From Paenibacillus ihumii (GTDB taxonomy: Bacteria > Bacillota > Bacilli > Paenibacillales > Paenibacillaceae): DNA of 64,000 nucleotides. The stretch covers positions 2,914,117 through 2,978,116 of the forward strand of contig NZ_LN884299.1 of assembly GCF_001403875.1 (NCBI RefSeq), given 5' to 3'. This document shows, piece after piece, positions 15,001-34,951 of this stretch. The notes under the pieces are model-generated. The model searched no databases. It had not been told where the DNA came from and worked only from the letters and a program-made list of their open reading frames with translations. Numbering within the stretch: the first letter of the stretch is position 1; each line of letters starts with the position of its first letter. Made by a program: the position numbers and the translations under genes.

Positions 15001-16556
15001 AGAATGCCGACGATGGATTCGCGCTTTGCCCCTTGAGCCAGAATCTCCCGGGCCAGCCGGTTCGCCGCCTCATCCAGCTGCTGGTAGGTAAGGCTCTCCG
15101 CACCATGAACGACCGCGATGCGGTCCGGCGTCCTGCGAGCCTGTTCCCCGAACAGGCCATTTATTGTCTGCTGGCGCGGATAATCGGCCGCAGGAGGGTT
15201 AAATGCCAGCAGCTCCCGGCGCTCCGCATCATCCACTATATCGATCCGGTCCACCTCGATATCCCGATCGGCAGCAACGGCCTCGACGATATTTCTCAAA
15301 TGCCCGGACAGCCGTTCGATGAAATCGGGGGTATATGCCTCCTGATTGTAGGTCATGTTGAATTCAAGCTCTTCGCCGGGCTGGATGATGAGGCTGAAAT
15401 CATAGTTGTTGCGCTCGACCGAATCGCCTTGCCTGAACGTGAAGCCGAGCCTGCTGCTCAGCTCCCTTACAGAATCTAGAGAAGATACATAATTTTCAAA
15501 TACGACGATATGGTTTACCAGCTGTCCCCCGCATTCGGAATTGGCCTGAATATCGGCCAGGGAGCTGTACTCATAAGGCTTGGCTGCCAGGGAGCTGCGG
15601 TGCACGCTCGCTACGAGACTGGAGAAGGTCTGGCCCGGCTCTTTTTTGACGCGAACGGGTATCGTGTTAATGAATAGTCCTACGATATCCTGCACCCGCT
15701 CAAGCTCCGGGGGACGGCCTGATACTACGGAGCCGAAAACCACATCGTCGGCACGATTGTATTTATACAGAAGGATTGCCCAGGCCGTCTGGATCACGTT
15801 GTTCAAGGTCGTTTGCAATTCTTTGGCAAGCTGAGCAAGCCTGAAGGTGGTCTCCTTGCTTAGCCGGAATATGTGCTCCCGGTGCAGGTATTCGCTTCCC
15901 TGCCTTTTCTGCTGGCGGGGAATGACTGCCGCTTCCTCATAACCGCTCAAGTAATCGCTCCAGAACGCAGCGCTCTCCTTCGCATCCTGCCGCTGAAGCC
16001 ACTTCATGTAAGAGCTGTACTTCGGGGGCTGGCCAGGAGCCGGCTGCTGGCGGTTCAGCAGCCGGCCGTACGTCTCAAGCAAATCCTCGAACACGAGCCC
16101 CCAGCACCAGCCGTCCATGACGATATGATGGAAATTCCAGATCAGCTCATACCGGTCAGAGGACAGCTTGATCAAATGCAGCCGAATAAGCGGATCCTTG
16201 GCCAGCTGAAACGGCTTTTCTCGATCCGCCTCCTTGTATTCCGCCAAAAAGTGGGTCTGTTCCTCGGCAGACAGATGAGTGATATCCTCGTATTGCAGGG
16301 AAACCTCCCGCTTCTTCAGCACGATTTGCACCGGCTGCTGAAGGTTCTCATGCACGAAGGCGGTGCGCAGTACATCATATTTGTCGATCATGGCTTGAAA
16401 GCTGCTCTCTAGAACGCAGCGGTCCACGGTGCCCTCGAGAATGGCTGAACCTTGAACGAAATAGAAATTGTCCCGGCCGTCCCGGATCGCGTGAAACAGC
16501 ATTCCTTTCTGCATCGGTGTAAGTTCATATATATCCAGAACATTGCTCTTATCCAC
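9003..16556 (-). CDS. NRPS subunit D: C-A(Thr)-T-C-A(Phe-like)-T-E, terminal subunit
   Basis: 2517 residues, GTG start seven bases after GAGGAGG. Domains by motif: C1 (1-445, HHIVMDG at ~145, the MDGWC form seen after D-residues), A5 (465-955), T5 (LGGHSLKA ~1003), C2 (1062-1500, HHIISDG ~1186), A6 (1510-2000), T6 (LGGDSIKA ~2028), E (2086-2510, HHLVVDA ~2211, EGHGR, TVGWFTS). Hand-read A codes are DFWNIGMVHK (Thr) and DAWTVGAVCK (Phe-like). The N-terminus DIYELTPMQKGMLFH looks like a communication acceptor. The C-terminus stops at SEEDLLRI and lacks the LTPSDF-type donor tail found on subunits A and C. No thioesterase follows. It adds the last two residues, inferred Thr and D-Phe. Confidence 0.93.
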   Translation of the reverse strand: MDKSNVLDIYELTPMQKGMLFHAIRDGRDNFYFVQGSAILEGTVDRCVLESSFQAMIDKYDVLRTAFVHENLQQPVQIVLKKREVSLQYEDITHLSAEEQTHFLAEYKEADREKPFQLAKDPLIRLHLIKLSSDRYELIWNFHHIVMDGWCWGLVFEDLLETYGRLLNRQQPAPGQPPKYSSYMKWLQRQDAKESAAFWSDYLSGYEEAAVIPRQQKRQGSEYLHREHIFRLSKETTFRLAQLAKELQTTLNNVIQTAWAILLYKYNRADDVVFGSVVSGRPPELERVQDIVGLFINTIPVRVKKEPGQTFSSLVASVHRSSLAAKPYEYSSLADIQANSECGGQLVNHIVVFENYVSSLDSVRELSSRLGFTFRQGDSVERNNYDFSLIIQPGEELEFNMTYNQEAYTPDFIERLSGHLRNIVEAVAADRDIEVDRIDIVDDAERRELLAFNPPAADYPRQQTINGLFGEQARRTPDRIAVVHGAESLTYQQLDEAANRLAREILAQGAKRESIVGILLDRSADMIIAILAALKAGTTYLPIDPAYPAERIQYMLEDSGAELLLAASGQTAPNSYRGAVISLDGDFWKSGDSSSLEELNRPDSRAYIIYTSGSTGKPKGVMVEHKNVVRLLFNSDNLFDFNENDVWTMFHSMCFDFSVWEMYGALLYGGKLVIVPADTARDAREFRALLRSEGVTILNQTPSAFNMLASEEAAHEDHLNIRKVIFGGEALSPIQLKAWHEKYPSTALINMYGITETTVHVTYKEITKREIDSNVSNIGRAIPTLQAYVLDERQQLLPIGVPGELYVSGDGVALGYLNRAELTAERFIENPFAPGERMYRSGDLVKWLPGGEMEYLGRIDHQVKIRGHRIELEEVSAQLLLHEHIRDGIVLARSDGDGIPYLCAYFVASQTIHTDSLREYMSERLPQYMVPSFFIELDRLPMTPNGKIRRDALPSPADIRKSATEYAAPQSELELALLGIYQDVLGMADLGVTDHFLRLGGHSLKATMLVSKIRKALGANVPVSEVFSNPTVRDLARYIRSEEGLPEMKIIHPAPELPQYPVTSQQKRLYSIQELDPSGVSYNIPVALEITGALDIPKLEQSLQRLADRHESLRTLLRAEDGRLVQYVADRVETRLALLAAAPDPAELERIMMEFIRPFELDKAPLFRAGLVQAGPERHILLLDVHHIISDGLSMNILLHDLFHFYQDKALPVIQVQYKDYAVWQERWAGSPEYAKQEQFWVSRFAGELPILDFPTDYARPPVQTFAGDQLGFEVDKASTEELKSLAVQQQATLFMALLAVYHILLAKYSGQRDVIVGTPLSGRPSEQLDYTTGMFANVVPLRNPLSFDQTFSEYLQNVRNELLKVYQHGDYPLEELVKRLSLQRDPSRNPLFDTLFTLQDIEEVDIDAGGLKLRELRLGEPAAKFDMTWEIVTGEKLFIHLCYNTSLFQRATMERLAGHFKSIVAQVLRNPQIAIKDILLATPEEEQILQSFNAARGTTEHRHSTIVGLFENQARLNPDDTALFWREQSLSYRELNSKANQIANILRRKGVGRNQIVGIMLPPSPEMIIVMLGILKAGGAYLPIDPTYPAERIHHFLSDSGAGLLFTREGMEDRVVAGQQELLLVEDLAFEEEECPNPEHAAAPDDLAYVIYTSGSTGKPKGVMIRHHSVCNLSLVSDTLGIQRGSRVLQFSSFSFDASVWEIFMTLLRGATLYIEDRNVLLEQGLGSWLKAKRINVATLLPSVLRSIPYEELPDLHTLVTGGEACTMDLIEKWAEGRTLINAYGPTEATVCSTLTPVSRSTKRITIGKPIKNTEAYILNSYRQLQPVGVPGELCIGGAGLAKGYLNRPELTAEKFIDNPFQPGTQLYRTGDLARWLPNGEIEYLGRMDHQVKIRGYRIELEEISDCLLRHESVREAVVVPVQQGGTTALAAYYVAVGPIGASELRRHLSEELPEYMIPAYFTPLEQMPLTANGKVDAKRLPKPQLGSREKIAPRNAQEEQLLKVWQEVLAVDEIGVEDNFFELGGDSIKAIEISAKLNRSSLRFRIKDIFESPTIAGLSAKLVKQSSGASTAAVEGRVPLTPVQQWVFQLAGHPEHWNQAIMLEREDSWNVDAVTAAFQSITEHHDALRMIYYPDDHGMIQENQSASGRHFDLECFDFQGRADAESLIEREADRLQRSIRLEQGPLTKLGVFRTDAGSYLLIIIHHLVVDAVSWRIIMEDFEYLYGCYEHGETPQLPAKTTSFQAWSEALARYANTADVLEEAEYWSSVISKEVPGLPAGQNAGTSHTFGDMEEIEVDLTAEETGILVRRAPAAWGTEMNDLLIAAYLRTLNEWCGHTRFAIDLEGHGRSEFSPDQDLTRTVGWFTSLYPAVYEIPEGNLLSVLKTVRENHRSIPRKGFGYSILKFLTDPERKEGIDFGFAPEICFNYLGEFQDGLKQEGVRSASIPFGDLIDHSMIWPYQMELNAHIVNGQLRCALRFNRRRIARGSMDMLASRFRHHLVLLSEHCSEEDLLRI

Positions 16557-16585: not shown

Positions 16586-19500
16586 CTATTGTTTTAATGC
16601 TTCAAAGATATCGTCTAGCTCCTCCAAACTGAGCTCCCGGGCCGAGAAATCGCTCGGCGTCAGCTCGGTGCCCTCTGCCTCTGCGCAGTGTTGGATCACT
16701 TGCTCCAGATGTTCCTTGAAGGAATTGCGCAGCTCTTCCATCGTACGAAGGTCGAATTTGGCGGCATCATATCCAATGACGAGCCTCAGCTCCCCGTTCA
16801 CGACCATCCCGTTGATCTCAAGCCAGTAGAGCGGCTCCACATAGTCGCTCGCCGCACTGCCGGCCGGTGCATCGGATAGCTTGAAGCCGCCTTCTTCCCC
16901 GGCCCCCAGCTGACCCAAATAATTGAATAGAATCCGGGGCTGCGAACAGAAGCGGTGATGTCCCTTGCTGCCCGGTGAGGTCATGTACCGCAGAATGCCG
17001 TACCCCGCTCCCTTATGCGGAACACTGCGCAGCGTCTCCTTGACCGCCTTGATGACATGCGGAATGGCGCTGCTCTGCAAGCGGAACACGACGGGATACA
17101 GGCTGGTAAACCAGCCTACCGTTCTGGACAGGTCGACCCCGGCCATCAGCTGCTCCCGGCCATGCCCTTCCAGACTAACAGCCATGCTCTCCTCTCCGGT
17201 CCACCGGGTGACTGCCAGCGTCAGCGCAGCCAGCAGAATATCATTGACTTCAGTTCGGTACGCCTGATGAATGGTCGTCAGCAGCTGTTCGGTAAAGTGC
17301 CCGTCCAGCTTCAGCTCGACCTCTTTATAACGCTGTCCAGCTTCACAGGCATGGACCCCGGCAGGCAGAGCAGCACATGCCTCGACCTGGGAATCGATAT
17401 CCTTCCAATAGGACAGCTGATTCAGGAATTCATCGCTATCGGCATAATCCTGAAGCTGCTTGCTCCAGTCGAGGAAGGAGGTCGTCTTTGCCGGCAGCCG
17501 AACCGGCTGGCCGGAATCGATTTGGCCGTAAACAGCGGCAAAGTCCTCCAGCAGTATGCTCCATGACACGCCGTCCACGATCAAATGGTGCATGACAATA
17601 AGCAGATATTCACCCTCGCCGCTTCTGAAATGACCTAACCGGATCAGCGGCCCCTCCTCGATGTCCAGCGATCGATGCAGCTCGTCACCTTTCTCCCGAA
17701 TCCAAGCGGTAATGTCGTTATCCTCATCGATCACCCAGCTGTCAAAGCCGAAAATTTCGGCATCCGGATCCCGGTGGGTGAAGCTGCGGCCGCCCTCCTC
17801 CTCGCGGAAGACGATGCGCAGCGCGTCGTGATGCTCCGTCAGCCTGCTCCACGCCTGCTTGACCGCCTCGATGTCCCATCCGCTCGCACGCTGCAGCAGC
17901 ACCGATTGATTCCAATGATTGCGATTGGAGACCGGCTGTTCAAAGAACCATTGCTGGATAGGGGTTAGTGTTCCGTCGCCGCGCACAATGCCTTGCTCGG
18001 CCCGAATCGTTCCTTCCTTGAGCAGAGGAGCAAGGGCTCGCACGGTCGGGTTCTGGAAGAACTCCGTCATATCAATCTTCAATTCATGCTGATTCAGCTG
18101 TGCTGCCACATGAATCGCTTTAATCGAATCCCCGCCCAGCTCGAAGAAGTTATCATTGACGCCTACGCGGCCGACATGCAGAACCTTCTCCCATATTTCA
18201 ACAAGCAGCCGTTCCTTCTCACTCTCCGGAGCTTCATACTCCTTCTCCACGGTGAAGGCCGGCTCAGGCAGTGCCTTCCGGTCCAGCTTGCCGTTATGGT
18301 TCACTGGCAGCGCCGGCATTTCAATGAAGTGGGCAGGCACCATATAATCAGGCAATGACCGGAGCAGCTCGCTTTTCATTGCTGCAGGCTGAAGAATCCC
18401 CTGCTCGGCGCCGACATAATACGCGCATAAATAAGGAGCTCCTCCTGCGTCCTGCCTGGCTATCGCGGCGGCTTCGCGAACGCCCTCAATTTCCAGAAGC
18501 CTGGTGGTGATTTCATCCAGCTCGATCCGGTAGCCGCGAATCTTCACCTGATTATCAATGCGTCCTAAATATTCGATGTTTCCGTCCGGCAGCCATCGGG
18601 CCAAATCCCCGGTCCGGTACATCAGCTGCCCCTCCAGATATGGATTTGGGACGAAGCTGGCGAGCGTCAGGTCATCCCTGTTCATATAACCCCGGGCCAG
18701 ACAGGCTCCAGAGATGCACAGCTCCCCGGGAACCCCGACCGGCTGAAGCTGATCCTGACGGTTAAGAATGAACAGCTGCACATTATCGATCGGTTTGCCG
18801 ATCGGAACCGTTCTCGGCTCTCCCTGCACGGGACAGTGATAGTAAGACACGTCGATCGTCGCTTCGGTAGGGCCGTAGAGATTGTAGAGCCGGGCCTGAG
18901 CATGTCCGGCCTGCTGAAATCTTGCCACATGGCTGGGCAGCAAAGCCTCTCCGCTAGTAAAGATTCTTCGCAAACGGGCAAGCTGTCCCATATAGGCCGG
19001 CATTTCCATGAAATCAAGGAAGCTGCCCAGCATGGACGGGACAAAATGAATGCTCGTGACCCCGCTGCGATGCATGCAATCGATCATCCGGTCAGGCGCC
19101 TTCTCTTCTCCGGCAGGAAGCAGGCAAAGGCTTGCTCCTGTAAAAAACCACATGAACAGCTCCCATACCGAAACATCAAACACATAAGGTGTCTTTTGCA
19201 GAAAAACATCCTCCCGGCTGATGCCGTATTCCTTCACCATCCAGGCGATCCGGTTATACACCGTATAGTGCTCGATCATGACACCCTTCGGCCTGCCCGT
19301 CGATCCGGAGGTATACAGGATGTAAGCCAAGTCCCGCTCCTGATGGATATGCGCCAGATTGCTGCCGTCCTCGCCATAAGCTTCCGGCTGATCGGCATAA
19401 ATCGTGACGGATGCCAGCCCCTCCGCCAGATCCGCATATTTCCGCTCCGTCAGCAGAAGCTTGATGCGGCTGTTCGAAGCCATGTATTCGATCCGCTCCC

Positions 19501-22500
19501 GCGGAAACTCCGGGGACAGCGGCATATAGGCACCGCCGGCCTTTAATACCGCCAGTATGCTGATCATCATTTCAAAGGAACGGTCGAACAGGATGCCAAC
19601 GGCCTGATCCCTGCCTACGCCATGTGCCCTTAACCTTCTGCCCAGCTGATTAGCGCGTTCATTCACTTCCCGGTAGGTCATTTGCCCGCCGCCGTACAGC
19701 AGCGCCACCGCATCCGGCGTCTGCTCCGCCTGCTCCTCAAAAATAACGTGCAGCGGACGAAACGGCGGATACGCAAACCGGGTGTTGTTAAAGTCCGTCA
19801 ATATTTGCCGGCGTTCGCCCTCTGTAATGCATGCGAGCTCTTGAATCGCCGCTTGCGGGTTGTCAATTGCTTGGGCCAATAGCTGAAGGTAGTGTCCGGC
19901 CATTCTTTGAATCGTCGCCTTCATGAACAGCTGCGTGCTGTATTCCACCAAAATTTGCAGTTGGCCCGAGGCCCCCTCCTGCACGTACCAGGTCAAATCC
20001 AGCTTGGAATACTTCCAGCTTGGATTATGGAGATTATGCTCGATCCCCATAAATCGTTCGCTGCTAGCACTATGAGCTTCCAGAACGAACATGGTATCGA
20101 ACAATGGATTTCTGCTGATGTCCCGCTGCAGCCCCAGCCTGCGGATCAACTCCTCCAGCGGGTATTCCTCATGCTCAAGAGCGCCGAATACCGTTTCCTT
20201 CACCTGGGCCAGAAATTCAGCAAACGGCTTGGAAGCATCCGGATACAACCGCAGACCAAGCGTATTCGCGAACATGCCGACGACGGATTCAAGATCCGGA
20301 TGAGAGCGGCCCGCCGTCGTCGTACCGACGACGATATCCTCCTCATTCGCGTACTTGGACAGCATGATGCCATAGACGGACAGCAGCGTTGCGTACAGGG
20401 ATGCTTGGTGCTCCTCCATGAACCGGGCCAGCTTCGCTTTCAATTCCTCCGGCAGCGGCACGGTGACGAGATCTCCGTCAAATTTCTTGATGGCCGGCCG
20501 CGGATAATCCGCAGGCAGCTCCAAGGCCGGGAGCGGACCCTTGAACTGCTCCAGCCAATATTCCTCATGCCGTTTCATGCCGCCCTTCTCCAGCGCATTA
20601 TGCTGCCAAACCGCATAGTCTTTATATTGAATCGGCAAGGCAGGAAGAATCTCGCCGCGATAGAGCTTCATCAGCTCGTCCAGCACCGTATCGCCGGACA
20701 GGCCATCGTAAACAATGTGGTTGGCATCCATCAGCAAATAATGCTTATGCCGGCCAAGCTCGACGATGGCAGCACGGAAAAGCGGAGCCCGGCTCAAATC
20801 GAACGGTCTCGTAAACCCTTCCGCATAAGCCTCCAGCTCCTCGTCAGAGCCCACTGACCCGAATTCCACGCGAAAATCGACCTCTTCATGGATCTGCTGC
20901 ATCAGCTCGCCCTGTACGAGATGAAAGGAGGTGCGAAACGCCTCATGTCTCCGTACCAGCGCATGCAGCGCTTCAGCCAAGCGTTCCTTCTGCAGCGGTC
21001 CTCTCAGCTCCAGAAGCAGCGGAATGTGGTAGCTGGTTCCGATCCCCGCGAACTGCTGCACGGAATACAATCTTTGCTGTACAGAGGTGACCGGATAATA
21101 GGCTTGCTGCTCGGCTGGGCTGATTGCTTGGTACGAGATGCTTTGAGCCTGCTTAATATAGCCGGCCAGCTCCTCGATCGTCGGGTGGGCGAGAATAGCC
21201 TGCAAACTGATTTCCACTTGAAAAATTTTCTGTATCCGCGACAATAGCGTCATCGCCCGCAGCGAATGGCCGCCGACGGCAAAGAAATCCTCCCGCAGGC
21301 CGATCTGCTCGCGTCCGAGGATTTCCTGCCAGATCCGAAGCAGCTGCTCCTCCGTCCGATTCCGTACAGCACGGGAGCTGATCCCCGCCTCCAAGCCGGA
21401 ATGCCGCTCGGCATCGGAGCCCCCCTCAGCGTCCGGCAAACCGAGCTCCCCGATGTATTGCAATTCGCCATTCTCCAAATATCTGGCGAGAATGCCGGTT
21501 CGGATCAGCTTCGCTCCGGGCACCCAAGGATGATCGACGAGGCGTTCAGGCATCCCGTTCTCATACAAGGCCAGCTCCATCCCCGCAGCACCTGCATACA
21601 GCTCACCGGGAATTCCCGGCGGCATCAGCTGCAGCCAGTCGTTCAGGACATAGAGCTCTTTGCCGGGAAGCGGCAGCCCCGTACTAGCACTGGAGCAAGA
21701 CTCGCTGTAATACGCATGGATAAGCGGACCTGCTCCGGCAGCCCCATAGAGGACGGAGAAGCTTCTATGCTCTGCCCACGCATGAATCAGCTCCGGGGAC
21801 ACCGTCCGGGAATTCGTGGTGACCAGCCTCAGGCAGGGCAGCTCCTCCTGCGGTACAGCCCGGAGCTCGTCCTCGCCAAGATGCGCAACGGCGATGCTAT
21901 TCTCCTGTAAATACTGTGCGGATCGTTCTGCCGGCAGCCCGCTTTTCTCCGGCAAGCAGAGTGTGGCTCCGTGAAGCAGCGGCAGAAGCATCTCCTGACA
22001 GGAAGCATCCATATAGGCAGAGTCGCTCTGATAAATGCGCTCTCCGGGCCGAATCGAATAAGCTTCCGCCAACGCTTGACTGTCCAGGAGCGCATGGTGC
22101 GTAACCTTCGCGCTCATCCGTACCACGGGATGCCGTCCGCCTCCCAGACCCTCAATCCCAGCCGCCACCTCGGCTTGAATATGCTGCTGCAAGGCGCCGG
22201 GCTGAGGCAGTGCCTTCCGGTCGACCTTCCCGTTTGCCGTTAACGGCAGCTTGTCCATCGCGATAAAATAGGAAGGTATCATATAATCAGGCAGGCTGGC
22301 GGATAGCCGTTCTCGCCAGTCGCTGCCCCGGATCGGCCGATCTGCGACGTAATAGGCGCACAGCGCCTTCTCCCCGCTCTCCTCCTCGCGGACCGCCACG
22401 ACGACTTCCCGGACCGAAGGCTCCTTCTGCATATGAGCCTCGACTTCCCCCACCTCGATGCGGTAGCCTCTGATTTTAGCCTGATGATCCATCCGTCCGA

Positions 22501-24481
22501 CGAAATCCACATTACCGTCAGGCATCCAGCGGGCCAAATCTCCGGTTCGATACAGCCTTTCTCCAGGCACGAAGGGGCTGGCGATGAACTTCTCGGCCGT
22601 CAGCTCCGGGCGCTTCCAATAACCTTTTGCTACGCCGTCCCCGCCGATGCACAATTCCCCCAACACGCCGATGGGAACAGGCTGCAGCGCTTCGTCTACA
22701 ATATAGAAGCGCGCGTTCAGAACAGCCCGGCCAATCGGGACGCTCCCCGAATCCGGCAGCTTGGAGAGCGGCTCGTCATACAGGCTGGAATCTATCGCAG
22801 CCTCCGTTACTCCATAGCTGTTAATAATGCGGAATTGCGAGCCGAACCGCTCTTGAAGCCAGCGGTAATCCTTCACGCTGCAGCTGTCCGAGCTCGTAAT
22901 GAGCAGTTTCATGGAGCTCAGGGCGAGCCCCTGATCGGCCACATGCTTCATAAATGGAATAATCAGGGCTGGCGTCGATTCAAAGACGGTAATTTGCTGG
23001 TCGCGAATCCAGCGGAATAATCGATTCGGATCAATGCGGTCCTCTTTAGGACAAATGACCATGGCTCCCCCGTTATAGAACGTCCGGGCTATGTCGCCGA
23101 CGAATACGTCGAAGGAGAAGCTGGCCAATTGCAGCAGCCGCACCGGGAAATCGCCCAGTCTGAATTCCCTGCGGTAGCCGGCAGCGGTATTCATGAAGCT
23201 GAAGTGGTCTATCATAACCCCTTTGGGACGGCCGGTTGTCCCCGAAGTATAAATGACGTAAGCCAGGTCAGTGGTTTGCTGGACTGGCTTCAGATTCGCT
23301 GTTTCGTCGTCATAGATCCCTTCATCCTCCAGATAGAGCACCCCGCTGCCTTCCTTGCCGGCCGCACTCGACCAGTCGGCGGCCAGTTTCTGCAGATGGC
23401 GCTGGGTAAGCAGAACTGACGCCTCGCTATCCTCCAGCATGAACCGGATCCGCTCCTCGGGATACTCGGGATCGATCGGGACGTAAGCCGCACCGGATTT
23501 CCACACTGCAAGCACGGAGACTACCATGCCGACGCAGCGCTCCACGAGTATGCCGACCAATTCATTCGGCTTCACCCCGCATTGGCGCAGCGTCCGTGCC
23601 AGCTGGTTTGCCCTGGCATTCAGCTCCCGGTATGTCAGCCGTTCTTCCTTGTATTGGACTGCGATCGCATCGGGATGACGCTCAGCCTCGGCTTCGAACC
23701 ATTGATGGAACATAACCTCCTTCGGGTAATCCATATCATGGCGGTTAAAGTTATCAAGCACGAGCTTCTTCTCCTGCGCCGACAGCATGTCCAGGACAAG
23801 AAGCTCTGTTTGCCGATTCTTCAAGGCTGCTTGCAAGAGCCGTTCTAAATGGCTCGATGCCTGCTCGATGAAGGCCTGTTCATACAAATCCGCGCGATAG
23901 AGGAAACCCAGGTACAGAGCGCCGCCCCGCTCCTCCAGCTCGATGGCAAGATCCGCCAGAGCCAAATCGCTATCCTCGAAATGATAAAAATTGCTCAGTC
24001 CCGCCAGAACAGGGGTCCGAAGCTGCCCGGAAAGCCTCCGCAAGCAAAGCTCCTCCGCCCGTTCTTCCAGCGGCAATCCCTGCGCTGCGGATAACAGCAA
24101 AGCTAGCTGCCGATTGCCTTCGATCATCAGCTCAAAGGTATCCTTCGCGCTTATTGGCCGGGAATGCAGCAGAATATGCATCCTCCCGCCGGCATTCTCC
24201 GAATCGGCATAGGGAAGACCAATGGTGATCTGACTGTCCCCGGTATACCGGTAGAGCAAGCCTTGGATGCCAGCCAGCAGGAACGCCAGGAGCTCGCTGT
24301 AATCATGCCGGCATTCTTCGAGCAGGCTGACAGACAGCTCCTCTTCGAGCGTCCGGACTGCCTTCATCCAGGTTGTATTCTTGCCGCCGAGCGCTTTGCT
24401 GTATGGAATCATCGTAGGTGCGAGCTCTTCGCCGCCCGGCGAATGATTTTGCCATAGTATGATTTTTTTATTTTCAGCCAT
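16586..24481 (-). CDS. NRPS subunit C: half-C-A(Dab)-ghost A-T-C-A(Ser)-T-E
   Basis: 2631 residues. The ATG at 24481 follows GAGAGGGG; longer in-frame extensions run antisense-like into gene B and are rejected. Domains: C-terminal half of a condensation domain only (1-255, no HHxxxDG), complete A3 (256-755, YTSGTTGRPKG, NGKVDRK; code DVGEISSIDK = Dab), a 30-residue linker, a degenerate A core fragment (790-1010), T3 (VGGHSLRA ~1072), C (1130-1575, motif NHIVYDG ~1257), A4 (1580-2080; code DVWHFSLIDK = Ser), T4 (LGGDSIKA ~2115), E (2176-2600, HHLIVDG ~2300). The tail LTPSDFSARELSLEELDDIF is a typical communication donor for subunit D. Inferred to add Dab and D-Ser. Confidence 0.92.
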   Translation of the reverse strand: MAENKKIILWQNHSPGGEELAPTMIPYSKALGGKNTTWMKAVRTLEEELSVSLLEECRHDYSELLAFLLAGIQGLLYRYTGDSQITIGLPYADSENAGGRMHILLHSRPISAKDTFELMIEGNRQLALLLSAAQGLPLEERAEELCLRRLSGQLRTPVLAGLSNFYHFEDSDLALADLAIELEERGGALYLGFLYRADLYEQAFIEQASSHLERLLQAALKNRQTELLVLDMLSAQEKKLVLDNFNRHDMDYPKEVMFHQWFEAEAERHPDAIAVQYKEERLTYRELNARANQLARTLRQCGVKPNELVGILVERCVGMVVSVLAVWKSGAAYVPIDPEYPEERIRFMLEDSEASVLLTQRHLQKLAADWSSAAGKEGSGVLYLEDEGIYDDETANLKPVQQTTDLAYVIYTSGTTGRPKGVMIDHFSFMNTAAGYRREFRLGDFPVRLLQLASFSFDVFVGDIARTFYNGGAMVICPKEDRIDPNRLFRWIRDQQITVFESTPALIIPFMKHVADQGLALSSMKLLITSSDSCSVKDYRWLQERFGSQFRIINSYGVTEAAIDSSLYDEPLSKLPDSGSVPIGRAVLNARFYIVDEALQPVPIGVLGELCIGGDGVAKGYWKRPELTAEKFIASPFVPGERLYRTGDLARWMPDGNVDFVGRMDHQAKIRGYRIEVGEVEAHMQKEPSVREVVVAVREEESGEKALCAYYVADRPIRGSDWRERLSASLPDYMIPSYFIAMDKLPLTANGKVDRKALPQPGALQQHIQAEVAAGIEGLGGGRHPVVRMSAKVTHHALLDSQALAEAYSIRPGERIYQSDSAYMDASCQEMLLPLLHGATLCLPEKSGLPAERSAQYLQENSIAVAHLGEDELRAVPQEELPCLRLVTTNSRTVSPELIHAWAEHRSFSVLYGAAGAGPLIHAYYSESCSSASTGLPLPGKELYVLNDWLQLMPPGIPGELYAGAAGMELALYENGMPERLVDHPWVPGAKLIRTGILARYLENGELQYIGELGLPDAEGGSDAERHSGLEAGISSRAVRNRTEEQLLRIWQEILGREQIGLREDFFAVGGHSLRAMTLLSRIQKIFQVEISLQAILAHPTIEELAGYIKQAQSISYQAISPAEQQAYYPVTSVQQRLYSVQQFAGIGTSYHIPLLLELRGPLQKERLAEALHALVRRHEAFRTSFHLVQGELMQQIHEEVDFRVEFGSVGSDEELEAYAEGFTRPFDLSRAPLFRAAIVELGRHKHYLLMDANHIVYDGLSGDTVLDELMKLYRGEILPALPIQYKDYAVWQHNALEKGGMKRHEEYWLEQFKGPLPALELPADYPRPAIKKFDGDLVTVPLPEELKAKLARFMEEHQASLYATLLSVYGIMLSKYANEEDIVVGTTTAGRSHPDLESVVGMFANTLGLRLYPDASKPFAEFLAQVKETVFGALEHEEYPLEELIRRLGLQRDISRNPLFDTMFVLEAHSASSERFMGIEHNLHNPSWKYSKLDLTWYVQEGASGQLQILVEYSTQLFMKATIQRMAGHYLQLLAQAIDNPQAAIQELACITEGERRQILTDFNNTRFAYPPFRPLHVIFEEQAEQTPDAVALLYGGGQMTYREVNERANQLGRRLRAHGVGRDQAVGILFDRSFEMMISILAVLKAGGAYMPLSPEFPRERIEYMASNSRIKLLLTERKYADLAEGLASVTIYADQPEAYGEDGSNLAHIHQERDLAYILYTSGSTGRPKGVMIEHYTVYNRIAWMVKEYGISREDVFLQKTPYVFDVSVWELFMWFFTGASLCLLPAGEEKAPDRMIDCMHRSGVTSIHFVPSMLGSFLDFMEMPAYMGQLARLRRIFTSGEALLPSHVARFQQAGHAQARLYNLYGPTEATIDVSYYHCPVQGEPRTVPIGKPIDNVQLFILNRQDQLQPVGVPGELCISGACLARGYMNRDDLTLASFVPNPYLEGQLMYRTGDLARWLPDGNIEYLGRIDNQVKIRGYRIELDEITTRLLEIEGVREAAAIARQDAGGAPYLCAYYVGAEQGILQPAAMKSELLRSLPDYMVPAHFIEMPALPVNHNGKLDRKALPEPAFTVEKEYEAPESEKERLLVEIWEKVLHVGRVGVNDNFFELGGDSIKAIHVAAQLNQHELKIDMTEFFQNPTVRALAPLLKEGTIRAEQGIVRGDGTLTPIQQWFFEQPVSNRNHWNQSVLLQRASGWDIEAVKQAWSRLTEHHDALRIVFREEEGGRSFTHRDPDAEIFGFDSWVIDEDNDITAWIREKGDELHRSLDIEEGPLIRLGHFRSGEGEYLLIVMHHLIVDGVSWSILLEDFAAVYGQIDSGQPVRLPAKTTSFLDWSKQLQDYADSDEFLNQLSYWKDIDSQVEACAALPAGVHACEAGQRYKEVELKLDGHFTEQLLTTIHQAYRTEVNDILLAALTLAVTRWTGEESMAVSLEGHGREQLMAGVDLSRTVGWFTSLYPVVFRLQSSAIPHVIKAVKETLRSVPHKGAGYGILRYMTSPGSKGHHRFCSQPRILFNYLGQLGAGEEGGFKLSDAPAGSAASDYVEPLYWLEINGMVVNGELRLVIGYDAAKFDLRTMEELRNSFKEHLEQVIQHCAEAEGTELTPSDFSARELSLEELDDIFEALKQ
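21452..22114 (-). other. Degenerate distal half of a split adenylation domain (inside NRPS C)
   Basis: After the complete Dab A domain, the protein resumes in the middle of a second A domain. KVTHHALL matches the region just after motif A3; MDASCQEM matches A4; LYGAAGAG replaces the expected YGPTE of A5; RTGILARYLENG replaces RTGDLARWLPDG of A7; the A8 to A10 lobe including the catalytic Lys is missing. So it has lost ATP-binding and catalytic residues but stays in frame. It complements the A1-A2 half at the end of gene B. Confidence 0.8.
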
Positions 24482-24512
24482 TGCCACGTCCCCTCTCTTG
24501 CATTGCATCTTT

Positions 24513-24995
24513 TTACTGAAAAACGATGTACGCCGGATCCTCCGGCACACTGTCAGCGTCCCCCGGTACGCTGGCCGGCTCCAGCTGCTGCGCTGCCGCT
24601 GCCAAGCCCTCCCCCTCTGTCTCCTCCATCCAGAGCATGCCGGCCTGAATGCCGGGTAACGGAGCAAGCTCCCTGCTGCTGATGACGTACTCAGATGAGC
24701 TGTAATGAAGCATGGCGTTGACTCTTTCCACCGGCTCCTCCGGCATAATCGGCACATACGCCGCGCCGGCCTTCAATACGGCGAGCATCGCGATAACCAT
24801 TTGCACCGACCGCTCCAGACGGAGGCCTACATAATCGCCTCTTCGGATTCCCAGCTTTTGCAGTCTCCTAGCCAGCACAAGAACCTGGCGGTTTAACTCG
24901 GCATACGTGTACTTCTCATCCCCCATCATGACGGCGGTCTGATCCGGGTAAAGCCGAACCTGCTCCTCAAAGCGCCCGATTACTGTCTCCTTCTG
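24513..24995 (-). other. Proximal half of the split adenylation domain (end of NRPS B)
   Basis: Residues ~465-624 of subunit B align with the A-domain N-terminal core through motif A2 and end at the first residues of A3. The missing remainder of this domain is found in subunit C (21452-22114), separated by about 2.4 kb that encode a half-C and a complete Dab A domain. Confidence 0.75.
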
Positions 24996-26387
24996 GCGCC
25001 CTTCTTCACTCCGTCCCTGGGAATTGAATTTCCGCAAAATTCGCTTCCTCTCCTCTTCCGGCAACAATTCAATCTCCCTTATGTGCATGGATGGGCTGCT
25101 GGTGACCTGTTGAATGATCTGCTCCAGATGCATTCCGATGCTTGATACGAAGCTGTTGCTGTACATATGCTCGTTAAAAGTAAAGACGATCTTGAGGCGT
25201 TCGCCTGGATAGACGGTTAAATCTAAATCGTAATTCGTCTGCTCGAAGGCTTCGATCCCGGCAATCTCAAACGGGCACCGGGCCTGGGCCTGAAGCTCTT
25301 GAAGATCAAGCGGATAATTCTCGAAAACGAGCACATGATCGATTCCGCCTCCCTGGACGCTGACCGGCTCCATCATCTCGGGCAAGGAAACATAGCTGTA
25401 TTGCTCGGATTCCAGCATATGCCGCTGTATGCCAGCCATCAGCTCGAGGATGGTGCTCCCGTCCTCTCCCTTTACGCGAACAGGGATAGTGTTGATGAAC
25501 AAACCGACCATTTCATCAATGCCAGGTACGGGTGCCGATCTTCCAGAAATAACGGAACCGAAGACAGCATCCTCCGTGTTATTGTATTTTTGCAGCAAAA
25601 TCCCCCACACCGTCTGGAAAGCCGAGCTCATCGTAACCTGGGCAGCCTGGGCCAGCTTCGCGAGCCGGCCGGTTAAATCCTCGCCGATTTCATAAGTGAC
25701 CTGGGCAAACGCATAATCGGCAGACTTCCCCGCTTTCTGCAAGGGAATGCCGGTACGGCCTTTATACCCCCGCAAATAACTGCCCCAATGTTGCTTCGCT
25801 GCCTGATCATTCTGCTGCTGCAGCCATTTGACGTAGCTGCTGTACGGAGCCGGCTGCTGGGGGGAGGCTGAACTGCCGCTTGCGGATGCGCTGCTGTAAT
25901 GCTGCAGCAAATCCTTCAATATAATGCCGATGCACCAGCCGTCCATCAGAATATGGTGATGGCTCCAGAGCAGCTTGTATTCCTCATCCTCCCATTTGAG
26001 CAGCTTAAACCTTAGCAGCGCATCCGAGGTCAGGTTAAAGCCTTGATTGCGGTCGCTTACCTTGAGCCTCTCTAGATGCTCTTCTCTGCTCCGGTGATCC
26101 AGCCCGGAAATATCCTCATATTGAAGCGGGAGCCTCCGCTCCTTGAGCACGATCTGCACCGGATTCTTGAAGGAGCTGTAATCAAATACCGTTCTGAATA
26201 TGTCGTAAGTCTGAATCAGTGCATTCAGGCTCTGCTCGAGCCGGCTCGCCTCGACTGGACCTTTGAGCGTCAACGTCATTTGCTCGAAATAAGAATGGGA
26301 TTCCTGATTTTGCAAATAGTGAAACAATATGCCCCGCTGCAGCGGGGACAGCTCGTATATGTCCTTAATATTTTTTTTCTCTATCAC
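24513..26387 (-). CDS. NRPS subunit B: C domain with truncated A domain
   Basis: 624 residues, GTG start after AAAGGTG. A complete condensation domain (1-435) has the acceptor-like N-terminus DIYELSPLQRGILFH and the catalytic HHILMDGWC (~146), the form expected to accept a D-residue donor, which subunit A supplies. From ~465 an A domain begins: YTYAEL (A1) and LKAGAAYVPI (A2). It stops with AYIVFQ then TAA, precisely where other modules continue YTSGSTG (A3). None of the three frames beyond the stop encodes A3, so this is not a simple frameshift. It has no carrier domain and no donor tail, and must work in trans with subunit C, whose gene starts 31 bases later. Confidence 0.9.
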   Translation of the reverse strand: MIEKKNIKDIYELSPLQRGILFHYLQNQESHSYFEQMTLTLKGPVEASRLEQSLNALIQTYDIFRTVFDYSSFKNPVQIVLKERRLPLQYEDISGLDHRSREEHLERLKVSDRNQGFNLTSDALLRFKLLKWEDEEYKLLWSHHHILMDGWCIGIILKDLLQHYSSASASGSSASPQQPAPYSSYVKWLQQQNDQAAKQHWGSYLRGYKGRTGIPLQKAGKSADYAFAQVTYEIGEDLTGRLAKLAQAAQVTMSSAFQTVWGILLQKYNNTEDAVFGSVISGRSAPVPGIDEMVGLFINTIPVRVKGEDGSTILELMAGIQRHMLESEQYSYVSLPEMMEPVSVQGGGIDHVLVFENYPLDLQELQAQARCPFEIAGIEAFEQTNYDLDLTVYPGERLKIVFTFNEHMYSNSFVSSIGMHLEQIIQQVTSSPSMHIREIELLPEEERKRILRKFNSQGRSEEGRQKETVIGRFEEQVRLYPDQTAVMMGDEKYTYAELNRQVLVLARRLQKLGIRRGDYVGLRLERSVQMVIAMLAVLKAGAAYVPIMPEEPVERVNAMLHYSSSEYVISSRELAPLPGIQAGMLWMEETEGEGLAAAAQQLEPASVPGDADSVPEDPAYIVFQ

Positions 26388-26423: not shown

Positions 26424-29400
26424 TTAATTCAGCCCGGCCAGGAAGAGATCCAATTCGTTCTGATCGATTCCAGAGGCGCTAATGTCACTGGAAGTGAGCG
26501 CCCGCTCTTTTTGCTCCAGGCAATGGTCTTTAATTTCGCATAAGGAGCTGTAGAAGCGGCTGGACAGCTCTTCCATCGTCTCCGGCTTGAAGCAATAAGG
26601 GTTGTACCGGAAAGTAAAATGAAGCTCGCCTCCAAGAAGCGCACCGTTAATCTCGATGGGGGCCGCCATCTTCGTTAATGGGCTGATGGAGTCGCCGATG
26701 GATACCGCCGCCGATTGGCTCAACCCTTCAAGCACCTCCCCGGCCTCAAAAGCGCCCAGGTAGTTAAAGCTTACTTCGGGAGCTGGGAATCCGGTCTGAG
26801 CATATGCAGCCCGGCCTGGTCCGAAATACTTCCATACCCCGTAACCCGCACCTTTGTTCGGAACCTCCCTTACCGCGTTCTTGACCAGCTTGATCGTCTC
26901 TCCGATCTCGCTTGACGCCAGGCACAGCACCAGCGGATGCATAGACGTGAACCACCCTACCGTCCGGGTTACGCGAATATCCGGGAGCATCTCCTCCCTT
27001 CCGTGTCCCTCCAGCTGGATCGCGATCGAGCGGACATTCATACCGTGATAGAGCGCCAAAGCGAGGGCGCTAAGCAGAATATCATTCGCTTCCGTCCCGT
27101 AGGCATGATGCGTCTTGGTCAGAAGCTCGTCGCTCTCCGCCGCAGGAATTACCATCGTTACGAGCTTGCTCTCCTGAAGCGTGCAGTCCCTTGCCCCGGG
27201 ACCGTCCTTCGGCAGGGCCTCCAGTGACGTCTCCGCGAGCCTCTCCCAATAACGTGCTTCAGTCAGGAAGGCTTCCGTCTGTACGTACTCCTGCAGAGCC
27301 TCGCTCCACGCTTTATAAGAATCCGTCTTTGGAGGGAGAGAGAGCGGCTGGCCCTGCTGAAGCTGTCTGTACAGCGCGTGGAAATCCTCCAGCAGAATGC
27401 GCCAGGATACGCCGTCCACGACCAGATGATGCACCGCGATCATCAGATAGTCGCTGTCCGCGGCATGAAAAATCGCGGCCTGAATGAGAATTCCCTGCTC
27501 CAGGTTCATTCTGCGCTGCAAGGCACCGGCCTCTTGTTCAATCCGCTGCGCGGCATCCCCGCCGCTCTCAAGCTGAAATTCTCTGAGCTCGAAGCAGAAG
27601 GCCGCCTCCTCTACAGGCCGGTTCATTTGAAGGATGTGATCTGGTGCATCGATCCGATCTCCTGCGCCTGTATTAGTGATATCCTCATTGCCTTGTCCGC
27701 GTCTGCTATATATCATCCGCAGCGCATCATGATGCTCCGCCAGCTTGACCAGGGCTCTCCGGATCCATTGCTCCTCCCATCTCTCCTCAGAATGCAGCAG
27801 GACCGATTGATTCCAGTGCTGCTCGTCGGGAAGCTTCTGCTCGAAGAACCAACGCTGAATCGGGGTCAAGCAAACCTCGCCCGCTACAGGCTGCTGGCTT
27901 GTCTCTTTGGTGATCCGTTTGAGTTGCGGCGCTAGCTCGGCAATTGTCGGATATTTATATAAATGAGAGATTTCCAGCTGATAATGCCGGGCGCTTAGCC
28001 TTGCCGCGATTTGAATTCCTTTGATGGAATCTCCGCCAAGCGCGAGAAAATGATCCGTCACGCCAACCCTCGGCAGCTTCAAGACGTCCTGCCATATTTC
28101 CGCCAGCAGCATTTCCGTTTCATTCCCGGGCGCAGCATAGTCGTCCTTCGTCTGTACCGCTCCCCTTGGGTCAGGAAGTGCCTGGCGATCGATTTTATGG
28201 TTGGGCGTTAAAGGCAGCTCCGGCAGTACGGTCAGGTAGGACGGGATCATGTATTCCGGCAGCAGCTCCTGCAGATATGGCCGGATGGCATCCTGATCCC
28301 CTGCTTCCTTTAGTACAATATAAGCTGCAAGATAAGCCTTGCCATCATCCTTCCGGTCGACAACGATTGCTTCTTTAACATGAGGATGGCTCAGCAGAGT
28401 CTCCGTTATCTCGTTCAATTCGATTCGATGCCCGTTGATCTTCAACTGATGATCGATTCTTCCCAGGTACTCGATGGAGCCATCCGGCAGCCAGCGGGCC
28501 AAATCTCCTGTTTTATAAATGCGGCCTTCATGGAACGGATTGGGGATAAATTTGTCCGCGGTCAGTTCCGGTCTGTTCCAATAGCCCCTCGCTATGCCTG
28601 CCCCGCCGATGCAGAGCTCTCCCGGAACGCCGATCGGCTGAAGCTGATGCTCCGCGTTCAGAATGTATATTTTTTTATTCCACATCGGTTTTCCAATCGT
28701 GACCTTGCCTTCCGTCCCGGACAAAATCGCAAGCGTAGCTCCTACGGTCGCTTCCGTCGGGCCGTATCCATTAACAAATGTGCGCCCTTGGCCCCAGATT
28801 TCTACCAGCTCCCGCGAGCACTCCTCCCCAGCCGTTACGATCGTCCCCAGCTTGGGCAGCGGTGAATAATCAATCGCGCGCAGCAGGCTTGGCGGCAGGA
28901 TGACCGTAGTGATTTCGTGTGCTCTTAGATAGGCCGGCAAATCCCGGAGAACTGTATCCTTGGTGTCTACGTACAATGTCGCTCCGCTAAGGAGAGCATG
29001 GAATATTTCACAGACGGACGCATCGAAGCTGAATGGAGCAAATTGCAGGACATGGCTCCCTTCTTTGATTCCGAAGGCCTCCGCTATAAGGGCGAAATTG
29101 CACACTCCCTGGTGCTCGATCATCACGCCCTTCGGCTTGCCTGTGGAGCCGGAGGTATAAATCATATAGGCAAGGTCATTCGCCATATTTACATGATCCA
29201 GATTGTCGCAGGGCCGCGCATCGATGTCTTTTCCGTCCAGCTCCAGCAGTTCGCCCACATAGCCCGAAGGCCGTGCGCTATGCCGGTCTTTAATCAGCAG
29301 CTTGGCCCCGCTGTCTGCGAGCATATAGTCAATGCGTTCCGCCGGGTAATTCGGGTCGATCGGGATATAGGCTCCTCCCGCCTTCAACACACCCAGGACG

Positions 29401-32400
29401 GCGGCAATCATACCGATCGACTTGTCCATCATGATGCCGATGAACTCATCCCGCTGAATGCCCCTCTCAAAGCGCAGCTCTGCGGCAATGCGATTGGCCC
29501 AATAGTTCAGCTCGAGATAGGTCACGCTCCTTCCGTCCGATACAACGGCTTTGCGGTCCGGATGCAGTCTGACCTGCTCTTCAAACCATTCATGCAGCGT
29601 CTTATCGTGCGGATAAGCCCTCGCTGTGTCATTGAAATCAGACAGGAGCAGCTGTCTCTGGCTCTCGTTGAGCAGTTCAATCTCCGCTAAGGCCTTGTCC
29701 GGCTCATCGGCGATTTGTCCGAGCACGGTTATGAACAGCTCGACCGTCTGCTCGATCGTCGGCTCAGAGAATAGGGCCGTATTATACTCCACATAGCCGA
29801 CCAGGCTGGTCCGGTCATAGAACTCCCAGGAGAGGTCAAGCTTGGAATAGCTGCGCTCCACCTGAAGCGGCCTGACGTCGGTATCGGGAAATTCAGGTTC
29901 GTGCTGCCCCATGTTTTGTAAAACAAGCATCGTGTCAAACAGCGGATTTCTGCTCGCATCGCGGCGGGTTCCGAGATCCTGGACGATCCGCTCAAAAGGA
30001 TATTCCGCATGATCGAAAGCCTCCAGAACCGCTTCCTTCACGGATTGCAGAAACTCGGAGAAGCTCTGTCCGGCATGCGATGTATTCCTTAGAGGAACTG
30101 TATTAACAAACATCCCGACGACTCTTTCCAAATCCGGGTGATTGCGGCCGGCGACAGGCGTGCCGATCACGATGTCCTCCTGCTCGGTCAGCTTGGACAG
30201 AAGGACGTGATAAGCGGCCAGCAGCAGCATGAACAGGGTGGCTCCCTGGTGCTCCGCAGCAGCCTTCAGCCGCTCCGTCAGTGCTGGCGGAATCGTGAAG
30301 CACAGCCTGCTGCCCGAGAAATCCTGAACCGGAGGCCGAGGATAATCCGCCGGCAGATTGAGCACAGGCAGCTCGCCTCCAAGCCGCTGCAGCCAATACT
30401 GCTGCAATGTCCGCATATCGCCTGACCTGTGGGATTCCTCATGCCAAACCGCGTAATCCTTATAGCTAATAGCTGGTGAATCAGGCTCCATTCCTGCATA
30501 CAGAGCCGCCAGCTCCTCCATGATGATGTTCATCGAAATTCCGTCTGTTACGATATGATGAATATCCAGGACGAACACGGTCTCATCCTCGTCGACATGG
30601 ATGCAGCCTGCACGCAGAAGCGGAGCGCTCGACAGGTCAAAGGGCCGCACTAAATCAGCGGCAAGTTCATGGATGCTGCGGTCCCCGTCTGAGGAAATCA
30701 GTTGCAGCGTCCACGGGACATCCTTATGAATCTGCTGAACCAATTCCCCCTGGACGTAATGGAATGAAGTTCTGAGGCTGTCGTGACGCTGAATGAGCTG
30801 TCTTATGGCTTGCTCTAACCGACCGGTATCCAGCCGCCCTCTCACACTATACGCATTCGTCACGTTATATCCGGTGCTGAGCGGATTCAGCTGCTGGACG
30901 GTAAACATGGTCTTCTGAGCGGAAGTAACCGGATAATAGGCCTGCTCCTTGGCAGCTGGCAGCGCCTTGGAGACTGCCTGCCTGGGCAAGGCATCGATAT
31001 AGGAAGCCAGGTCTGACAGGACAGGCCTTTGAAAAATCTCCCGGATGGGGAGAGTGACGCCAAATTCAGTCCGCGCCTGGGATATTAGCATCATCGCTTT
31101 AAGCGATTGGCCGCCCCTCTCGAAAAAGTGATCCCTTCGGCCGATCCGATCCGCCGTTAAAATTTGCTTCCAGATATCCGAAAGCGTGCGCTCGGTGTCG
31201 CTCTGCGGGGCTTCATACGGAATATCGCTTTGCTGGGAGGCGGAAGGATCGGGCAGCGCCTTTCGATTCACTTTGCCATTCGGCGTCAGGGGCAGGCTAT
31301 CCAGAGCGACGAAGTAAGCCGGTATCATGTATTCGGGCAGCGATTCAGACAAGTATTGCCTTAAAGGAAGCTCCATTCCAGGGCTGCCGCTAACATAGTA
31401 AGCGCATAAATAAGCATGTCCGCTGTCATCCTTCCGGGCGGTTACAATCGCTTCCTTCACGCCGGAATGCTGGCGCAGCTGCTTTTCTATTTCTCCCAGC
31501 TCAATGCGGTGTCCCCGGATTTTGACCTGATGGTCTATCCGGTCTATGAACTCTATGCTGCCATCCTCGTTCCAACGCGCCAGATCGCCCGTTCGGTACA
31601 TTCGTTCTCCCGGTGAGAAGGGGTTCTCTACGAAGGTCACTGCGGTTAATTCCTCTCTGTTCAAGTACCCTTCGGCCAAGCCTTCGCCGCTTATGCACAA
31701 TTCTCCAGGCACCCCGACCGGCTGAAGCTGATTCAGCGGATCCAGAATATACACCTGGGTATTATGGATCGGCCTTCCGATCGGAACTATTTCCATCTCC
31801 ATAATGTCATGGCCAACCGGATAGTAAGTAGCGAACACCGTCGTCTCCGTTGGGCCGTATACGTGGATAATCCGGTCATCCCCCAGGATTTCATAAGCCC
31901 TCTGCACATGCTTGATGCTGGCATTCTCCCCGCCGAACAATATTTTGCGCATGCTCTTGAAGCAGGAGACGTCCAGGTCGACAAGCATGTTGAACAGCGC
32001 TGTTGTAATGAACGTAACGGTAATTTCCTCTCGGCGGATCAGCTCCGTTAAATGCAGCGGGTTAAGCAAGGTCTCCTTCGGTACAAGCACTAATGTGGAA
32101 CCGTTCAGGAGCGCGCCGAAAATATCGAATGTCGAGCCATCGAACACATAATTGGACAGCTGAAGCACTTTATCGCGGCGATCCAGCTCGATATATCCGC
32201 AGTTGATCATGGTCTTCACGATGTTGCGATGCGTGGTTACGATGCCTTTGGGCATCCCGGTGGAGCCGGAGGTATAAATTACGTAGGCTGGCAGGGACGA
32301 ATCCAAATGACTTGGCTCCCGCCGGGCAGGCTCTGCTCCGGCTTGCAAAGCATCCTCAATGGCTGCCGAAGCGATCCCCCACTGGCCATGCTTCATCAGA

Positions 32401-33458: not shown

Positions 33459-33548
33459 GGAATCCTCTCCTCTTTTTGATAGATTAATCGGGATTGCAAG
33501 CGACCTAGATAATACCATTTTCCCCCTTTAAAGGTTAAACTAACTATC

Positions 33549-33691: not shown

Positions 33692-34951
33692 ATGCAAACA
33701 CAATCCGCGCTTCCCAGAGAAGCGCAGGCCATGGCCGAGGAAGCTCCCTTGTTTAAGAACAAAGTATTCATGCTGGCCTTCCTCTCTCTTATTCTGAACA
33801 GCCTGAGCACCTCTGTTTTTTTATTGACCGAATCCTGGTACATCGTAAATTATTTGGGCAAAGGCAGTTCCCTGGGCATTGTGCTTATGATGGCGGCGAT
33901 TCCTCGTTTGCTGCTTATGCCGATCGGGGGCGTAATTGCCGACCGATTTAAGAAGACCCATATTATGTTTCTTTCGGATGCTTCAAGAAGCATTTTATTG
34001 GTTATTATGCTGGTCGCCTTCCAGATGAATACCCTATCCTTGGCATGGATGGCATCTTTCGCGCTTGTCTTCGGAATCCTGGATGCCTTTTATTGGCCTG
34101 CTTCACAGTCTCTCATCCCTACTGTAGTCTCGGAGAACCGGCTTGCCCAAGCTAACTCTGTCTACCAAGTCGTACAGCAGGTATTCTACCTAACCGGGCC
34201 GTTAATCGGCGGCCTGATCCTGACCTTCGGCACCTACACTACCTTATTTGGCACGATATCAATTATGCTGCTCTTAGGAGGCATTCTCTCTCTCTACCTG
34301 GGCAAATTTCTGGCCAAAGAGAAGGAGGGGGATGCTGCGGCTCCATCCTTTAAACAGGAAATGCTTGAAGGGCTGCGTTACGTCAAAGGCCAGACCTTCA
34401 TCAAAATTTTAATGCTGATTCTGATCGTGGCCGGCTTCTTCCTGTCCGGTCCGCTGTCCGTAGCCATTCCACTGCTTGTGGACTCGGTTCTGCAGGGTAA
34501 TGCCCTTACTTTGAGTTACCTGGAAATATCGGTATCTGTCGGCATGATTCTCGGCGGGGCCGTGATCGCCCTCACTAAGCTAAGGCAGCGCAGGGCCTTA
34601 ATCTCCGTTCTAAGTCTGGCGCTATGCGGGATATGCCTTATCCTGCTAGGACTCACCTCTAGCTTCCTCATCATGATGCTGCTGCTGGCGACCTGCGGTA
34701 TGGTCCTGTCATTCAGCAATACTTTCTTTATAACGCTGCTGCAAGAAAGAACTTCTACAGACAAAATCGGCCGTGTCATGAGCCTAGTGACCACCGCCAC
34801 GACCGGCTTGCTTCCACTGTCCCATGCGGTTATTTCGTTCTCTATGCATAGCGGTGTTACCATTTCCAATCTCTTAATCTTATTTGGCTCGATCGTTGCT
34901 GCTTATTGCTTCCTCTTAATTTATTGTTCCAAGTCCGTTCGGACGGTCTAG
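33692..34951 (+). CDS. MFS exporter, macrolide-efflux-like, of the peptide locus
   Basis: A 419-residue, 12-segment major facilitator. Features include GGVIADRFKKTHIMFLSD (the loop 2-3 GxxxDRxxR/K motif), the PASQSLIPTVV segment common to the MefA/EntS-like group, and GPLIGG in helix 5. The ATG at 33692 follows GAGGGGG. It is divergent from the NRPS operon and followed by the Dab aminotransferase with a 69-base gap. It is the only exporter directly attached to the locus, so it probably exports the peptide or protects the producer; this is inference from position. Confidence 0.85.
   Translation: MQTQSALPREAQAMAEEAPLFKNKVFMLAFLSLILNSLSTSVFLLTESWYIVNYLGKGSSLGIVLMMAAIPRLLLMPIGGVIADRFKKTHIMFLSDASRSILLVIMLVAFQMNTLSLAWMASFALVFGILDAFYWPASQSLIPTVVSENRLAQANSVYQVVQQVFYLTGPLIGGLILTFGTYTTLFGTISIMLLLGGILSLYLGKFLAKEKEGDAAAPSFKQEMLEGLRYVKGQTFIKILMLILIVAGFFLSGPLSVAIPLLVDSVLQGNALTLSYLEISVSVGMILGGAVIALTKLRQRRALISVLSLALCGICLILLGLTSSFLIMMLLLATCGMVLSFSNTFFITLLQERTSTDKIGRVMSLVTTATTGLLPLSHAVISFSMHSGVTISNLLILFGSIVAAYCFLLIYCSKSVRTV

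Follow-up and report, generated by a model that had tools for sequence, protein, structure and literature searches.

Gene cluster and the split A domain

The window, a 64,000-nucleotide stretch of Paenibacillus ihumii (contig NZ_LN884299.1, positions 2,914,117 to 2,978,116), contains an NRPS cluster of four synthetase genes, A to D, all open and all on the minus strand (Table 1). The domain HMM did not separate C from E domains, and the terminal domains are called E-type by their low C score and their place at the chain end, and further by the motif HHLxVDGVSW, which we take to mark such domains. The last domain of the line is of the E-type, and genes A–D showed no TE domain; the orthologs described below end likewise. 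Gene A also starts with a half-C domain (32730–33518), of the ordinary C-domain kind. No upstream subunit was seen for it, and the orthologs have the same arrangement.

Table 1. Features of the NRPS cluster, in window positions.
Feature	Position	Strand	Remarks
ABC exporter trio (ATPase, 541-aa likely permease, DUF4097)	5501..8810	-	also in ortholog clusters
Gene D: C, A (DFWNIGMVH), T, C, A (DAWTVGAVC), T, E-type; modules 5–6	9003..16556	-	
Gene C, remainder: C, A (DVWHFSLID), T, E-type; module 4	16586..21163	-	
Module 3 T domain, GGHSL at residue 1070	21164..21379	-	54–59% identity to orthologs
Gene C residues 792–1015: core remnant of the interrupted A domain (A4–A8 region)	21437..22108	-	A5 and A7 lost, Asub missing
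Gene C residues 761–791: linker of no recognised origin	22109..22201	-	right edge of insert
Gene C residues 244–760: complete A domain, code DVGEISSID (Dab)	22202..23752	-	
Gene C residues 1–243: half-C (C-lobe), PmxA/PmxB N-terminal type	23753..24481	-	
Gene C leader with ribosome-binding site	24482..24512	-	11-mer AAGAGAGGGGA at 24489–24499, also at pmxA-like starts; possible GTG start 24487
Gene B residues 456–624: N-terminal half of the interrupted A domain	24516..25022	-	stops at A3 (AYIVFQ-stop)
Gene B residues 1–455: complete C domain of module 3	25023..26387	-	HHILMDG at residue 144; 51–52% identity to orthologs
Gene A: half-C, A (DGFFLGVVF), T, C, A (DACIVAGVG), T, E-type; modules 1–2	26424..33518	-	orthologs in G139, G147, G084
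MFS exporter	33692..34951	+	common to ortholog clusters
Diaminobutyrate--2-oxoglutarate transaminase (EctB type)	35021..36343	+	no match in three fetched ortholog regions

The gene B product, 624 residues long, matches Pfam Condensation over residues 8–451 and AMP-binding over residues 473–623, the latter covering positions 1–169 of the 384-position profile. It ends in EDPAYIVFQ, directly followed by the stop codon, at motif A3. Gene C, starting at 24481 or at the GTG at 24487, encodes in order a half-C (residues 1–243), a complete A domain (243–760) with motifs A3, A7, A8 and A10 present, a second A match (793–1012), a T domain (1035–1106), C-A-T and a C/E-type domain. The second A match corresponds to columns 176–410 of the 507-column A HMM; the remnant starts again at residue 792 as KVTHHALL, and its A5 and A7 read YGAAGAG and RTGI. 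About 2.4 kb lie between the gene B stop and the resumed core, and the first A domain of gene C is separated from its T domain by ≈275 residues. The motifs checked in the module 3 C domain, the cassette A domain and the T domain were all kept.

The first-pass annotation had read this region as an A domain broken off at A3 in gene B and resumed just past A3 in gene C, behind a half-C and a Dab-activating A domain, with A5 and A7 destroyed, the lobe after the core (Asub) gone and an interruption of about 2.4 kb; its coordinates and motif readings hold on all of these points. Its statement that the two halves together equal one A domain stands in part. Against the ortholog in genome G139, both remnants map to one A domain, at residues 467–589 and 627–851, but ≈10–11 residues of A3 and the whole Asub lobe (≈105 residues) are missing from the combined halves, which therefore make up the greater part of an A core but fall short of a whole A domain.

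Uninterrupted orthologs and the replaced module 3 code

A search of 394 family genomes with gene B, in which three candidates were scored per genome, gave matches in 23 genomes at E up to 1e-140. Apart from the window itself, the strongest matches were in G139, G147 and G084, from another genus of the family, each with 49% identity over residues 1–575 or 1–589. The clusters in these three genomes have the same gene order, half-C-A-T-C-A-T-E, then C-A-T-C-A-T-E as a single gene, then C-A-T-C-A-T-E, and the counterpart of genes B and C is one intact gene of 2541–2546 residues. The uninterrupted relative that the first-pass annotation had suggested looking for thus exists in three genomes. In the three ortholog clusters the ABC trio lies next to the MFS gene; in the window it is downstream of gene D.

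By segment, identity to G139 was 52% for the C domain of gene B, 41% for its A half (aligned part), 34% for the core remnant, 59% for the T domain, 51% for the next C domain and 64% for the next A domain. The cassette half-C had no counterpart at the corresponding place in G139. Scans of other collections with gene B yielded only four loci among wider genome contigs, all distant NRPSs (35–41%), no match among viral contigs, and 963 plasmid records, every one under 60%. Since the family searches scored a part of each genome's candidates (three for gene B, six for the half-C and for the remnant-to-T segment, two in another search), statements of absence apply to the candidates scored. Within that scope, the segment from the remnant core through the T domain had no listed match besides the window itself in the 394 family genomes (six candidates per genome, E up to 1e-22), and a search of 40 genomes of its own genus gave no second copy of the broken domain among the matches listed.

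The nine-position codes of modules 1–6 are DGFFLGVVF, DACIVAGVG, DVGEISSID, DVWHFSLID, DFWNIGMVH and DAWTVGAVC in the window, and DGFFLGVVF, DGAI(T/A)VGIG, DAGQSGAVD, DVWHFSLVD, DFWNIGMVH and DALIIGAVC in the orthologs. Modules 1, 4 and 5 kept their codes, bar one I/V change. The codes of modules 2 and 6 drifted, yet in the tree these domains group with or next to their own orthologs. Module 3 is the only module in which the code was replaced, with a Dab-type code in the place of DAGQSGAVD. Where module codes are read as Ile or Ser, we assume these readings. The code table of PMC3708778 gives DVGEISSI as L-Dab and DFWNIGMV as L-Thr. Together, the intact orthologs, the code shift and the placement of the cassette A domain in a Dab clade (below) bear out the main proposal of the first-pass annotation, that a half-C and Dab-A cassette disrupted an older A domain, with the gene divided, the predicted residue altered and a remnant left behind.

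Kinship of the cassette and of the B–C junction

The cassette A domain carries a code of the Dab form DVGEIS(S/A)ID and fell in a clade of 20 Dab-coded A domains with a support of 99, in a quick tree with long branches. When the family genomes were searched with the half-C, PmxA-like starts ranked first, with matches in 54 of 394 genomes at E up to 1e-14, and the alignment to PmxA-like N-termini begins at the start codon. The cassette half-C scored 168–266 against 28 PmxA/PmxB-like N-terminal half-Cs (excluding L117, a frame that is the cut end of an upstream gene), and at best 164 against 48 ordinary C/E domains, although its identity to the PmxA half-C is only ≈30%. The half-C of gene A differs, scoring 237 to ordinary C domains and 206 to PmxA/PmxB-like half-Cs.

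The window has a single copy of the leader 11-mer AAGAGAGGGGA, against 0.03 expected from shuffled sequence. The 11-mer was found in 16 of 129 loci, either as the window's own insert (3) or before a pmxA-like start (13 loci in 11 genomes); many of the 129 loci had been chosen for half-C starts, so this count shows a match of kind and is not an unbiased frequency. Among the five genomes searched, the closest copies of the Dab transaminase, 76% (G147) and 75% (G009) identical, lie 0.6–0.8 kb upstream of pmxA-like starts. The G084 homologue of the transaminase (G084:C1:4868388-4869623) has an internal TAA. The source genome contains another Dab-like A domain, with code DVGEIGSID (L004), which the transaminase may also serve.

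By these comparisons, the cassette resembles the 5' end of a gene for a polymyxin-type subunit. None of the 28 PmxA/PmxB-like half-Cs examined was directly followed by a Dab-coded A domain (seven of the codes were partial); an exact donor was thus not among them, and the cassette is perhaps itself a chimera.

G147 has a polymyxin-type synthetase in which a complete C domain with a short tail closes the PmxE-like and the PmxA-like protein, and a half-C plus A domain opens the PmxA-like and the PmxB-like one. Of 17 stretches hand-picked from the half-C matches, 16 had both an upstream complete-C end and a downstream half-C start, and the last had the upstream end only. All 19 tails of natural upstream partners have F as their last residue, and in 15 the ending reads I[DE]FxF; across all sequence compared, overlapping loci included, this ending occurred in 17 of 218 open segments of at least 300 residues. 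These patterns suggest that the upstream C tail and the downstream half-C may form a docking pair. We found no description of the half-C junction in the open-licence literature.

The downstream side of the B–C junction is of the same type, in that gene C starts with a PmxA/PmxB-type half-C followed by an A domain. The upstream side is not: gene B consists of a C domain and half an A domain and ends in PAYIVFQ, in place of a C domain with an I[DE]FxF-like tail. The first-pass annotation had seen no normal communication segment at either end, which is correct for gene B, as it lacks the usual partner tail, but not for gene C with its half-C. In the relatives, such half-Cs come after subunits with a complete C domain at their end; through the insertion, a C-A joint in cis has therefore plausibly become a C//half-C-A joint in trans.

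Junctions of this kind, a C domain with an I[DE]FxF or similar tail followed by half-C and A, recur at L113–L125, L127–L129 and G147:C84. At L113 (G273:C3:211500-216500), the C-A-T-C subunit has an A domain that lacks HMM columns 75–466 in frame; the stretch contains 10 Ns, and this may be an assembly effect.

Decay of the old A domain and the state of module 3

Within the columns of the remnant itself, identity to G139 was 35% for the N-terminal part and 32% for the core, whereas functional neighbours compared with their own G139 orthologs in the same columns gave 46–53% and 64–73%, respectively. Of the nearly invariant residues, 15 of 30 remain in the core and 17 of 21 in the half in gene B; for the conserved hydrophobic columns, the counts are 45 of 54 and 38 of 41, respectively. 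The end branch of the core in the tree is 3.8. The second codon position of the remnant has a GC content of 0.45, compared to 0.41–0.43 in A domains; codon-position GC did not discriminate.

The descent of the core from module 3 rests mainly on its position, since pairwise scores and tree slightly favour the gene D domain: the core scored 342 to the second A domain of gene D and 311–314 to the module 3 A domain of the orthologs, and the tree placed it nearest the A domain of gene D and the module-6 orthologs. For the half in gene B, the similarity comparisons singled out no parent A domain. Two trees were made, both quick and with long branches, and the alignment behind the one that places the cassette A domain and the core had extra columns from misplaced first residues of the remnant.

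The first-pass annotation had suggested that the two halves might still associate and so dock B to C; on this view they would fold together into a dead A core divided between the two subunits. The retained hydrophobic columns could be taken in its favour, as could the active two-gene split A domain known from corallorazine Crz1/Crz2 (excerpts of PMC11342130). However, simulated unconstrained drift matched the retention seen in 16–177 of 200 runs and, for the core, in 50–298 of 300 runs. Drift from related domains gave similar or slightly lower hydrophobic retention, and higher from some starts; with module 1 as the start, the simulated core retained more hydrophobic columns than the remnant. 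For the half in gene B, hydrophobic retention weakly exceeded that under drift with one of the four starts (13 and 10 of 300 runs). As drift gives like retention, no constraint on the remnant need be assumed. AlphaFold2 still built the core as an A-core lobe (pLDDT 66.8), and a Foldseek search with this model matched TycA at a TM score of 0.70, but the alignment used consisted of intact homologues, so that the models say little, and the core of gene D, used as a control, had a confidence of 56.2, below that of the remnant, so that they do not rank fold quality. With half of the conserved positions of the core gone, A3 and Asub absent, the low identity and long branch given above and drift sufficient to account for the decay, docking through the remnant appears quite improbable.

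The same decay bears on two other explanations. One is that the arrangement is an assembly or sequencing artefact that joined repeated NRPS pieces, and repetitive A domains are indeed prone to misassembly. Such a join would leave intact A halves, whereas A3, A5, A7, Asub and half of the conserved residues are lost here; moreover, positions 16000–37000 contain zero Ns and the window is an internal part of a long contig in an assembly of 9 contigs, so an artefact is hardly credible. The other is that the insertion broke module 3 and that the cluster makes no peptide, as might be suspected from a split joint without the usual gene B tail and from a remnant lying between the A and T domains. We consider this unlikely, since all four genes are open and the motifs checked in the C, A and T domains of module 3 are present; the remnant is old enough for half of its conserved residues to have gone, and over that time a dead line should have decayed elsewhere too.

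The sequence comparisons thus give good support to an insertion into a gene that is intact in the orthologs, to the code shift, to the kinship of the half-C, A domain and leader with polymyxin-type genes, and to the decay of the old A domain. The reading that we favour, and consider likely, is that this nested insertion rebuilt module 3, which presumably still works, and one amino acid of the product was probably swapped for diaminobutyric acid. The ancestor would have been a hexamodular NRPS with one bimodular gene (C-A-T-C-A-T-E) for modules 3–4. The 5' end of a polymyxin-type subunit gene, comprising leader, start codon, half-C and Dab A domain, would have entered the module 3 A domain at A3 and cut the gene into B, with the C domain and the first old A half, and C, with the half-C, the Dab A domain, the rest of the old A domain, the T domain and what follows. 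The predicted residue of module 3 would thereby have become Dab and the old A domain would have been free to decay; a gene for a Dab-making transaminase would also have been gained. In the rebuilt module, the C domain of B would join the upstream peptide to Dab loaded by the A domain of C onto the T domain of C, through a protein–protein contact copying the polymyxin-type C//half-C-A junctions, and the core remnant would be a tolerated linker between A and T.

A more speculative extension, which we hold to be possible but doubtful, is that a polymyxin-type half-C and A start is a portable unit, which in any A domain would swap the residue and make a working trans joint, the half-C catching the upstream C-terminus with the exposed A3 strand YIVF standing in for I[DE]FxF. 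If this were true, the locus would be a natural cut-and-dock experiment, revealing an undescribed C//A docking pair in such NRPSs. Should the module prove functional, cutting and bridging would be tolerated at the C-A joint, which is often regarded as rigid, and the half-C-A start would be a candidate part for engineering. The residue change proposed here would have been made in nature by a subunit start inserted inside an A domain and not by a subdomain swap, and both the uninterrupted ancestor-type gene and the donor lineage are in hand. The locus also draws attention to a C//half-C-A junction that recurs and has a conserved tail, for which no account was found in the open-licence literature.

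Several known systems share parts of this arrangement. Interrupted A domains carry a nested auxiliary domain, and excerpts of PMC8097286 and PMC8949500 describe insertion points between A2 and A3. The window likewise has a foreign domain nested in one A domain. However, a complete A domain, a half-C and a separate start codon make up the insert here, the host A domain is dead, and the gene is cut in two; the host motifs and Asub of the bifunctional type are not together on one chain, as the A3 core, A5, A7 and Asub are gone. We found no description of an A domain nested within an A domain in the open-licence literature. Corallorazine Crz1/Crz2 also has a single A domain on two genes, but, according to the excerpts of PMC11342130, that domain is active and split between A8 and A9. 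In the window, the split is made by another A domain, and the two parts do not jointly hold all A motifs and cannot adenylate, with A3 and Asub missing. Acore subdomain swapping, as outlined in part of PMC8097286, similarly changes the residue by recombination within the A core; it leaves one A domain, whereas here the old one stays as two halves. The PmxE/PmxA/PmxB polymyxin synthetases, whose modules are given in excerpts of PMC3708778 as A-T-C, A-T-E-C or A-T-TE, share with the window the half-C start, the Dab A domain, the leader, the Dab transaminase and the cut between subunits at C/A. Their upstream subunit has a clean C end with an I[DE]FxF-like tail, in contrast to the C domain followed by half an A domain in gene B.
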